Shown here one piece after another: positions 21,828 through 28,538 of a stretch of 34,473 nt of DNA. The notes below the pieces were generated by a model, which did no database searches, was not told the origin of the DNA, and worked only from the letters and a program-made list of their open reading frames with translations. Origin of the DNA: a virus. Positions within the stretch are counted from its first letter, which is position 1; the number at the start of each line of letters is the position of its first letter. Where the stretch lies: the IMG/VR virus record IMGVR_UViG_3300032516_000093, positions 1 to 34,473 of that record; one strand, written 5' to 3'. Both the position numbers and the translations under genes were made by a program.

Positions 21828-21857
21828 TTGACGAAATGCTTTAAGTGTGTTACACTT
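21828..21857 (+). promoter_or_regulatory. Sigma70-like promoter with palindrome over the -10 box, for gp55
   Basis: TTGACG (21828-21833) is followed after exactly 17 bases by TACACT (21851-21856), a good host-type promoter. The -10 box lies inside a perfect inverted repeat, AAGTGT-GTT-ACACTT (21843-21857), which could be a repressor site. No late motif precedes gp55, consistent with expression before late transcription. The divergent late promoter lies 34 bases to the left. Confidence 0.6.
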
Positions 21858-21884
21858 TACGAAACCCTAAAGGAGAAGACATTA

Positions 21885-22811
21885 ATGTCCCCAGACCTAA
21901 ACGAAGAAATGCTAATAGAAGACGACGAAGGTAATGTAGCACCCGAAATTGTTGTTATAGCACCCGTTAAAAAGATTAACTACCTAAACAATAAAGACAT
22001 GCTTAAGGAAATTCACCGTAGTAAGAATTCCTTCTGCGAATACATTAATCCAAAGTACAGCGACTATGATGTAATTGTTGAAAGTGTTGCTGAAATTTTT
22101 CTACCCGAAGTACAAGAAAAAGCAAAGATTGCTCGTGCAGCAAGAATCGCAGCCACAGCATATGAAGCCGCATTGCTTGCTAAGCCAAACGTTTCAAAGG
22201 CTGATAAGCCAAGACTTGCAGAATTTAAGATTAAACCAGACACACTTTCAGTTGATGACTTGGTATTTCGTGTTTTAGGATTTGATCATATTCCACTTGC
22301 GCCGGGCCGTAAGAAAAATCCTAAGAGTGAAGCTGATAGTTATATGAAGTTGAACTTCTACCCCTTCAAGCATTTTATTATTGATAATGGTGTCGAGAAA
22401 GAAGTTGGCCGATCACATTCAAAGAATGGTAAATTCAATCTTGAACGTGGCTCCATTACAAACAAGCTTGCTAAGATGTTCATCCTAATGGTAAACAAAT
22501 ATGCACAACGAGGCAATTGGCGAGGTTATACATACCTTGATGAAATGAAGGGACAGGCGTTATTGCAACTTGCACAGATGGGATTGCAATTTGATGAATA
22601 TAAATCTGACAATCCGTTCTCGTATTACACTGCTAGCGTTTCAAACAGCTTTACCCGTGTTCTTAACTTAGAAAAGAAGAATCAAGATCTTCGCGATGAC
22701 TTGTTAATTGATAGCGGTGCAAGCCCGAGCTTCTCACGCCAGTTAGCAGTAGAAGAAGAGATTCGTAGACTAAGAGAAGATGCACAGGATTCAGCAAAAG
22801 ATGAGCATTAA
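21885..22811 (+). CDS. gp55: Late-transcription sigma factor gp55
   Basis: gp55 is the phage sigma subunit that directs host RNA polymerase to late promoters. The diagnostic part is residues about 190-280, a sigma region 2-like helical block (YTYLDEMKGQALLQLAQMG, then NPFSYYTASVSNSFTRVLNL). The chosen ATG at 21885 (MSPDLNEE) follows AAAGGAGAAG at ideal spacing; an in-frame TTG at 21828 lies inside the promoter and is rejected. The protein has 308 residues against 185 in T4. The surplus is an acidic N-terminus and an Ala/Lys-rich helical stretch. It overlaps gp47 by 11 bases. Its target motif appears seven times in this window. Confidence 0.88.
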   Translation: MSPDLNEEMLIEDDEGNVAPEIVVIAPVKKINYLNNKDMLKEIHRSKNSFCEYINPKYSDYDVIVESVAEIFLPEVQEKAKIARAARIAATAYEAALLAKPNVSKADKPRLAEFKIKPDTLSVDDLVFRVLGFDHIPLAPGRKKNPKSEADSYMKLNFYPFKHFIIDNGVEKEVGRSHSKNGKFNLERGSITNKLAKMFILMVNKYAQRGNWRGYTYLDEMKGQALLQLAQMGLQFDEYKSDNPFSYYTASVSNSFTRVLNLEKKNQDLRDDLLIDSGASPSFSRQLAVEEEIRRLREDAQDSAKDEH

Positions 22812-26808: not shown

Positions 26809-26816
26809 TATAAATA
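26809..26816 (+). promoter_or_regulatory. Late promoter TATAAATA for the endolysin
   Basis: An exact match to the T4 late consensus TATAAATA, 20 bases before the endolysin ATG with AAGGAG in between. It is the strongest late motif in the window. Confidence 0.75.
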
Positions 26817-26836: not shown

Positions 26837-27418
26837 ATGTATTCACAGGCATACGAAGCAGCGGTTGATCACGCAATGTTATATGAAGTAGGCGGGTTCT
26901 GGAAACTTACTCCGGAAGTAGAAGCAGGGCTAATTGATACCGCTGCCCAAAGAAAGGCAGTTGGCTATGTCGATGATCCTTTAGACCGTGGCGGAGAAAC
27001 AAAATTTGGTGTTGCATTCAATGCTAATCCAGACTTAGACATTACAAACTTAACATGGGCACAAGCAAAGGCCGTTTACTATGATAGATACTGGGTTACC
27101 GGTGCGTGTGAAAAATTGTCCGGCCGGGTTGCAGTTTTACATTTTGACGGATGTGTGAATCATGGTGTTGGCAGGGCAAAGAAATTCCTCCAAACATCTG
27201 TTGGTGCAGTCGCTGATGGTATCGTTGGGGTAGCTACGTTAACAGCAGTAAATTCAAAAGATCCTATTGAAATATGCAATAAAATATGTGATCTAAGGGA
27301 ACAATTTTACAGAGACATTGTAACAAACAAACCAAATCAGGCACGTTTTCTAAATGGTTGGCTACGTAGAATTGATGAAATGCGAGCCTTTGTCACCGAC
27401 CTAAACAGGCAATTTTAA
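26837..27418 (+). CDS. Endolysin, GH108 family N-acetylmuramidase
   Basis: The enzyme cleaves the peptidoglycan backbone at lysis. Residues 51-58 are RGGETKFG, the GH108 active-site signature with catalytic E54. The conserved LTWAQAKAVYYDRYW and the HFDGCVNHGVGRAKKFLQ block follow. The C-terminal ~90 residues (VGAVADGIVGVATLTAVN) match the peptidoglycan-binding part that usually completes these proteins. About 20 extra residues precede the signature compared with typical members. There is no signal peptide or membrane anchor, so release would need a holin, which is not seen here. The 193-residue length and the ending are normal for the family, so I take the stop as genuine. The ribosome binding site is AAGGAG. 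Confidence 0.93.
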   Translation: MYSQAYEAAVDHAMLYEVGGFWKLTPEVEAGLIDTAAQRKAVGYVDDPLDRGGETKFGVAFNANPDLDITNLTWAQAKAVYYDRYWVTGACEKLSGRVAVLHFDGCVNHGVGRAKKFLQTSVGAVADGIVGVATLTAVNSKDPIEICNKICDLREQFYRDIVTNKPNQARFLNGWLRRIDEMRAFVTDLNRQF

Positions 27419-27772
27419 CCTATATCAAAATTGTGAATCATAAGTGTGTAGAGAGGCTAAAATAGCTTAACGATGTGAATCGTTCAAGCAAATTTTTCCA
27501 ACTAAAGCACACTTTTAATAAACACAATACAGGGTTAGCGAGCCTAGTTAATTTTTCGCTGGCGTGTCTTTCGGAATGGAGAGCAACAGCCAATGTCCAT
27601 TGAGTGTGCAATGGCAGGAACATAAGAAAACGACCATTGTCGTTAGTAAGATGATCTAAAAGTTTGCAGCAAGTATGTGAAAACAGGGTATGGCTTGCTG
27701 GTCGCGTAATTAGCCACTGAAGAATAATTACAAATGCGGCGAGGACGAAAGTCCCCCTTCCGAAACGCTTAA
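27409..27772 (+). ncRNA. Candidate structured non-coding RNA of unknown class
   Basis: This stretch has stops in all frames but an unusual density of hairpins. Paired arms: 27410-27416 with 27427-27433; 27442-27448 with 27508-27514, enclosing 27465-27474 with 27479-27489 (GUGA loop, one bulged C); 27534-27541 with 27556-27563 (two G-U pairs); 27597-27602 with 27609-27614; 27629-27634 with 27639-27644; 27667-27673 with 27694-27700; 27706-27712 with 27725-27731; 27743-27746 with 27751-27754 (GAAA loop). GGCTA at 27455-27459 could also pair with TAGCC at 27711-27715 in the loop of another hairpin. I could not match it to tRNA, tmRNA, RNase P RNA or a recognisable group I or II intron core. The class and exact ends are unknown. 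The strand is assumed from the neighbouring late genes. Confidence 0.5.
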
Positions 27773-27946
27773 TCGCGTGTAGTTGATATAATCAATCCAA
27801 CACTACAAGAATATTTCGGTTCAGAGTCTGGTGATGCTGTCAAGTATTTCCTATCCAAAGGTTTTGGATACCCTTGGTCTGACTCCGCTGTCAAATTAAT
27901 CAATCACTATTTAATTACTATAGAAGAGCGAAGCGATGTGGTCTGA
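27773..27946 (+). pseudogene. Start-less 57-codon protein-like segment (3' exon or gene remnant)
   Basis: The frame opens after TAA at 27770-27772 and runs to TGA at 27944-27946 with 57 codons and no ATG, GTG or TTG. The translation looks like real protein: NPTLQEYFGSESGDAVKYF, then GFGYPWSDSAVKLINHYL, with alternating hydrophobic residues and aromatic content unlike the flanking RNA. It could be a downstream exon joined to a coding sequence upstream, the remnant of a gene whose 5' part was lost, or chance. I do not recognise the family. Confidence 0.4.
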
Positions 27947-28008
27947 ACGAAAGACGAAGCGGAGTTTACGAAGCGAGTGTTTCGTGAATGACCCGGTCTG
28001 AAAGACCG
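27929..28008. repeat. CGAAGCG repeats and GGTCTGAA-type hairpins at converging gene ends
   Basis: CGAAGCG occurs at 27929-27935, 27955-27961 and 27969-27975. Two related hairpins lie among them: GTCT/AGAC at 27941-27955, and a perfect CGGTCT-GAA-AGACCG at 27994-28008. The second is inside the 3' end of the minus-strand gene. No T-run follows, so this is not a classic terminator. A role in RNA processing or bidirectional termination is possible but unproven. Confidence 0.45.
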
Positions 28009-28538
28009 ATAGTAGTATCTAACTTCTTGTAAATGCGTTTAGCAAGTTTGATAACTTCTTGATTTGTTTCTGAGCTAATGTCGACATATGGACGCAATTG
28101 CATTCTATATATTTCGTTAGAGAATGTTTCGACACCCACGACTCCAGTGAACTTCTGGAAATATAGTGTTGTAAATGCGCTAAGGCGTAGTTCTACTTCT
28201 CCGATGAGACTACTTAGTTCCTTATGTGATTCAGGATCAATATGCCTCATAAGTTTAACCTCACCCTTAGTGATATACATCTCTGTTAGTATGTGACGCC
28301 CTTCTGCTTTTTTCATGTAAATGTAGCCCGGTTGACGTACTAACATCTTGTTAGATATTAAGTCAATGCTCAATTCTCTATCTGGTAATGCATCTACAGA
28401 GAATGGACTCCATTTAATGTTCTGAACATCAAGTAATCTCGATAGTTCATAAACCCAACGATGTTTAGGATAACGGTCCCAGCATTCAATATCATCCTTA
28501 GGGATGTCGAATTCTTGCGTGTCTGTTTTTCTGTGCAT
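27966..28538 (-). CDS. Conserved-looking hypothetical protein, function unknown
   Basis: 190 residues, not recognised. It is soluble and charged with no membrane segment or signal peptide. The N-terminus is acidic and aromatic (ECWDRYPKHRWVYELSRLL). The middle is helical (DPESHKELSSLIGEVELRL), and the C-terminus is helical and basic (VIKLAKRIYKKLD). The ribosome binding site AGAGG precedes the ATG. It follows the small frame downstream of gp26 after 10 bases, so it belongs to the leftward gp26 late transcript; a role in baseplate-hub or tail assembly is only suggested by that position. Its 3' end contains two of the nearby hairpin and repeat elements. Confidence 0.75.
   Translation of the reverse strand: MHRKTDTQEFDIPKDDIECWDRYPKHRWVYELSRLLDVQNIKWSPFSVDALPDRELSIDLISNKMLVRQPGYIYMKKAEGRHILTEMYITKGEVKLMRHIDPESHKELSSLIGEVELRLSAFTTLYFQKFTGVVGVETFSNEIYRMQLRPYVDISSETNQEVIKLAKRIYKKLDTTIGLSDRVIHETLAS

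Follow-up and report, generated by a model that had tools for sequence, protein, structure and literature searches.

A covarying, pseudoknotted RNA beside the endolysin gene of jumbo phages, probably a stand-alone RNA gene

To our knowledge, few large structured RNAs of phages have been described; the best studied are GOLLD and ROOL, whose function is unsettled. Assembly into oligomers made of RNA only is a trait of both. GOLLD is induced during phage lysis (PMC12286853), and according to a recent review the jumbo phage PhiKZ expresses non-coding RNAs (PMC13282480). Here we analyzed a 34,473-nucleotide stretch of viral DNA (the window; positions 1 to 34,473 of IMG/VR record IMGVR_UViG_3300032516_000093), in which an earlier note, made from the sequence alone, had placed a hairpin-dense candidate RNA at 27409-27772, behind the endolysin gene. 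Relatives of this phage carry a conserved, structured RNA at that place. The location in the note was right and its boundaries were not: the endolysin stop codon ends at 27418, and the RNA core, about 365 nucleotides long, extends about 120 nucleotides 3′ of the end originally given.

27532-27894 (about), + strand: conserved structured RNA core, from the alignment of 28 distinct copies and covariation

An endolysin search yielded 58 loci, and pattern scans of IMG/VR with three conserved stretches supplied further copies. With a profile search of IMG/VR, about 37 contigs besides the window were found to carry the RNA. Loci and genomes are cited below by L and G numbers.

That the core is a genuine structured RNA is, in our judgment, nearly certain. 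From the 28 copies, RNAalifold drew 53 pairs, 35 of them with changes on both sides. In a hand-checked sub-model of 42 pairs (sub-model R1), 93.0% of cells were paired, 35 pairs changed on both sides, and none of 500 shuffles did equally well. The full structure, which includes two pseudoknots, has 74 pairs with 93.7% of cells paired, and 54 of these pairs change on both sides while keeping pairing; none of 500 shuffles reached the observed level, a test that is inflated by the relatedness of the copies. When partners were slid by 1-3 columns, pairing fell to 35-42%. The structure did not guide the alignment. It was derived from these very sequences, however, so the slide control is partly favorable by construction, and more weight belongs to the count of both-sided changes. 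When all column pairs were scanned without bias, the main helices emerged, as did the long-range CUGAA/UUCAG pseudoknot. Paired sites held 56 G-U cells versus 23 A-C cells, an excess that favors the + strand. The compensatory changes in 54 of 74 pairs bear out the suggestion of the earlier note that the region holds a functional structured RNA.

Folding energies told less. The region first proposed, read as the + strand, has a minimum free energy of -96.5 and beats shuffled sequences (z = -3.07; - strand, z = -2.56), in line with its description as hairpin-dense. For the corrected core (27524-27897), z was -1.53 and 5 of 100 shuffles folded equally well. Because the folding energy of the corrected core is weak by itself, the firm evidence is the covariation.

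At least a dozen helices were read from the + strand of the core. Those located, together with the two pseudoknots (PK1 and PK2), are as follows.

27538-27541/27556-27559, + strand: helix P1; 94.4% of cells paired, three of four pairs with both-sided change
27561-27562/27590-27591, + strand: helix P2, from the covariation model
27568-27572/27579-27583, + strand: helix P3; one pair changes from G-C to U-A in eight copies
27597-27614, + strand: P4, a CCAUUG/CAAUGG hairpin; 96.9% paired, also found in the column-pair scan
27618-27623/27651-27656, + strand: helix P5, with an inner hairpin at 27631-27634/27639-27642; from the covariation model and the column-pair scan
27667-27700, + strand: P6, a seven-base-pair helix closing the conserved loop GUAUGUGAAAACAGGGUAUG; 100% of cells paired, seven of seven pairs with both-sided change
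27701-27740, + strand: P7, a two-part hairpin whose apical loop takes part in PK1; 10 of 11 pairs with both-sided change
27743-27754, + strand: P8, a GGAC-GAAA-GUCC hairpin (GGACGAAAGUCC), with G-C, C-G and U-A versions
27760-27765/27814-27819, + strand: helix P9, which encloses P10 and P11; CATGAC/GTCATG in the paralogue L109
27766-27768/27775-27777, + strand: helix P10, inside P9, from the covariation model
27779-27783/27802-27806, + strand: helix P11, inside P9, from the covariation model
27717-27721 (P7 loop) with 27820-27824, + strand: PK1, CUGAA/UUCAG; 95.7% paired, strong covariation
27686-27691 (P6 loop) with 27868-27873, + strand: PK2, GGGUAU/AUACCC; 93-96% paired, no both-sided change

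Among relatives, PK1 becomes UUAUA/UAUAA, seen in one subgroup, and UUGAA/UUCAA. PK2 is complementary but, being nearly invariant, is unproven by covariation; we regard it as plausible. These two contacts take the place of the long-range pairing that had been proposed between GGCTA (27455) and TAGCC (27711), which fails because relatives have unrelated letters in place of TAGCC. The GNRA-type loops seen earlier do exist, with GAAA in P8 and GUGA at 27475-27478 in a hairpin of the leader described below. Among the unpaired stretches, AUAAUCAAUCC, a loop within the P9 region (27760-27819), and GUGAAAACAGGGUAUG are nearly invariant across the alignment.

The 3′ part of the core contains two direct repeats, about 51 nucleotides apart, that drift together.

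27826-27844, + strand: direct repeat R1, GUCUGGUGAUGCUGUCAAG, co-drifting with R2
27877-27894, + strand: direct repeat R2, GUCUGACUCCGCUGUCAA, at the 3′ edge of the conserved core, co-drifting with R1

Within a copy, the 7-base cores of the two repeats agree at 6.07 of 7 positions, compared to 4.55 when shuffled (14 haplotypes; 0 of 20,000 shuffles, with kinship ignored). Five loci (L107, L082, L078, L090 and L017) have identical unusual letters in both repeats, and by inspection L074 and L108 are two further cases. Where one genome has paralogues, the repeat differs between them and largely agrees within each. L033 carries a 16-nucleotide tandem duplication at R2. A pairing partner inside the RNA was considered and rejected, as no alignment column of the core fits repeat positions 4 and 7. 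The simplest idea, from the sequences, is that the repeats may recognize a partner outside the RNA. In guide RNAs, such as the bridge RNAs of IS110, one would expect short repeats whose sequence changes along with that of an external partner. That R1 and R2 recognize the same outside nucleic acid, with a specificity of each paralogue's own, as in a guide-like RNA, is a long shot; if true, it would amount to a phage-encoded guide system of an undescribed kind.

Upstream of most copies lies a leader, which in the window begins near 27455, between the endolysin stop and the core; its box and hairpin span 27457-27490.

27457-27465, + strand: promoter-like box CTAAAATAG, resembling the T4-type late promoter TATAAATA; from conservation and place
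27469-27484, + strand: leader hairpin AACGAU-GUGA-AUCGUU, directly 3′ of the box

Most of 13 leaders contain TAAAATA, in columns conserved at ≥90%, and the window encodes a T4-type late sigma factor at 21828-22811. The box has two exact matches in the window and is thus not unique, so that the case for a promoter rests on conservation and place; it is the putative late promoter of the RNA. The exact TATAAATA occurs once in the window, at 26809-26816, 28 bases 5′ of the endolysin start, where about five occurrences per window are expected by chance. By inspection, both strands of the leader stem vary together among relatives (AACAG/CUGUU, AACAAC/GUUGUU and AACAA/UUGUU); the hairpin is probably near the 5′ end of the transcript. 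Most loci also have a G-poor linker between leader and core and, in addition, a second element there, GGGACTGACGCGCCCCGTGAACGT...GCGTATAGGTTT, which the window, L011 and L101 lack. In the form GGGACTGACGCGCC...GCGTATAGGTTT (for example, L007 4660-4730), this element resembles the 5′ end of the core. Some loci, among them L075, L009 and L010, have a separate terminator-like hairpin directly after the endolysin and before the leader.

Two genes flank the RNA in the window.

26837-27418, + strand: endolysin gene, Glyco_hydro_108 and PG_binding_3, from Pfam and PHROG matches
27966-28538, - strand: convergent downstream gene for a conserved 190-residue protein, the neighbor in first-type copies

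The endolysin adjoins the RNA on its 5′ side in first-type copies with enough flank, and the order endolysin, RNA, 190-residue protein, baseplate hub is common to nearly all copies. The 190-residue protein had no match in Pfam, PHROG or annotated phages. Wherever this neighbor is visible, the gap between it and the endolysin contains the RNA; the exceptions are L029 and L032, where another element fills the gap. Stop-free stretches in the region shift in frame and position among copies, and no reading frame is consistent across the relatives examined, in which the region is non-coding; this agrees with the original observation that coding potential is absent, and a hidden protein between the two genes was rejected on these grounds.

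Not all copies occupy this slot. In L004 (3046-3864) and L033 (4583-5746), extra genes separate the endolysin from the RNA; they include phrog_4474 and, in L033, PKD and glycine-rich domains. Four diverged copies (L109, L110, L108 and L147) have other neighbors. At least two near-complete jumbo genomes, G001 (385 kb) and G002 (369 kb), have a second, diverged copy away from the endolysin slot, each genome carrying one copy of both kinds. In L147 (999-1325, - strand), the second copy directly precedes a same-strand gene for a small protein that begins with a hydrophobic stretch and matches no family convincingly; that this protein is holin-like is a guess. When one exact pattern was run against the 84,980 species genomes of GTDB, only a chance match, in Symbiopectobacterium, was obtained, and diverged copies could escape such a pattern.

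Judged by the portal protein (58% identity), PA5oct and its relatives are the closest isolated phages. Around the hub, their gene order is that of the window, except for the endolysin, which is located elsewhere. In PA5oct the slot is filled by a different long RNA-like element, with three paralogues in the genome (at 12.9 kb, 75.9 kb and 246116-246734); the 75.9-kb paralogue occupies the slot of the window RNA, flanked by a RusA-like gene and the baseplate hub.

L112 14640-15560 (PA5oct 75851-76771), L149 about 1400-1950, and L150 1617-2235: second-type elements of PA5oct

One paralogue, ncRNA004 (NC_071039.1 246116-246734), is annotated in GenBank as a putative long non-coding RNA from RNA-Seq. 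Small hypothetical proteins are annotated over another of the three in the PA5oct record. PA5oct itself was rejected as a carrier of the window RNA, the only match of sub-model R1 being at chance level and overlapping the portal gene at its 3′ end; the same model rejected PA5oct ncRNA003 as a relative. Part of the PA5oct element resembles L029, L032 and L114. A pattern scan for the second type returned mostly chance matches in coding sequence; only L029 (recovered as L126) and L114 looked related. In L029 (4670-5330), a leader and upstream element of the window type precede a core like that of PA5oct; this arrangement suggests core exchange within a single slot.

Taken together, we consider it fairly probable that a lineage of T4-like jumbo phages carries the window RNA as a stand-alone gene. 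Transcription would start from a late-type promoter of its own, CTAAAATAG; the transcript would begin with a stabilizing hairpin, and the compact folded RNA would act in trans, alone or with a protein, late in infection. More tentatively, the co-drifting repeats of its 3′ domain could form a recognition surface, both of them pairing with or binding one shared external partner. Two findings make a separate, trans-acting gene likely: other genes lie between the RNA and the endolysin in two loci, and copies exist elsewhere. Several points weigh on the other side. Expression of the window RNA is itself inferred, a sigma-70 scan gave no good promoter upstream of the RNA, and no intrinsic terminator was found at its 3′ end. 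The PA5oct element neither aligns with the window RNA nor is found by sub-model R1, so that its expression lends support by analogy only.

Other accounts of the locus explain some of these features. Lying directly 3′ of the endolysin stop and between convergent genes, the RNA could be a cis-acting element of the endolysin 3′ untranslated region that protects or ends the mRNA and keeps it apart from the gene running toward it; hairpins are frequent in such regions of phages. We judge this unlikely, since other genes intervene between endolysin and RNA in L004 and L033, the second copies are remote from the endolysin, several loci already have a terminator-like hairpin between endolysin and leader, and the elaborate covarying fold goes beyond the needs of a terminator. 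Somewhat less likely again is a ribozyme or degenerate mobile intron, self-processing or spliced. Although the compact pseudoknotted layout and the near-invariant unpaired AUAAUCAAUCC and GUGAAAACAGGGUAUG are typical of catalytic or ligand-binding RNAs, most loci have no split gene around the RNA and no intron-encoded protein adjoining it, and no ribozyme or intron in Rfam matched, permissive thresholds included. The one-strand G-U wobbles fit RNA and PK1 covaries, which leaves a DNA-level element (an origin, packaging or recombination site) folding by chance as a very improbable explanation, despite the resemblance of R1 and R2 to paired protein-binding sites and the tandem duplication at R2 in L033.

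The earlier note had found no RNA class that fits, and our searches agree. At gathering scores, Rfam 15 had no match in the window or in L112, L029, L032, L109, L010 and L017; at permissive thresholds, none of 4227 models for ribozymes, introns, RNase P, transfer-messenger RNA (tmRNA) or other families matched 27300-28050. ARAGORN found no tRNA or tmRNA in the window and no tRNA in the 14 loci scanned. In open-licence papers we found no description of this RNA family.

Among known systems, the bridge RNAs of IS110 differ in that no transposase or guide-using nuclease was recognized beside the window RNA and no target was found. Closer in kind are ncRNA004 of PA5oct and its paralogues, likewise long non-coding elements with several copies per genome in a related jumbo phage. 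As PA5oct can be grown in the laboratory on Pseudomonas aeruginosa strain PAO1 and its analogous RNA is annotated from RNA-Seq, the role of such giant-phage RNAs is testable. Like GOLLD and ROOL, the window RNA is large, phage-encoded, pseudoknotted (with one covarying and one near-invariant pseudoknot) and found by covariation. It is shorter than they are, with its core of about 365 nucleotides, and has other helices; their covariance models gave no match at gathering scores in the window and six loci, nor at permissive thresholds in 27300-28050. GOLLD and ROOL are often, though not obligatorily, near tRNA islands, whereas the window RNA is not in the loci scanned. The window RNA represents a new family of the same general kind as GOLLD and ROOL and is a member of neither; it adds to the large structured phage RNAs a strongly covarying example from jumbo phages that has paralogues and a fixed place in the genome.
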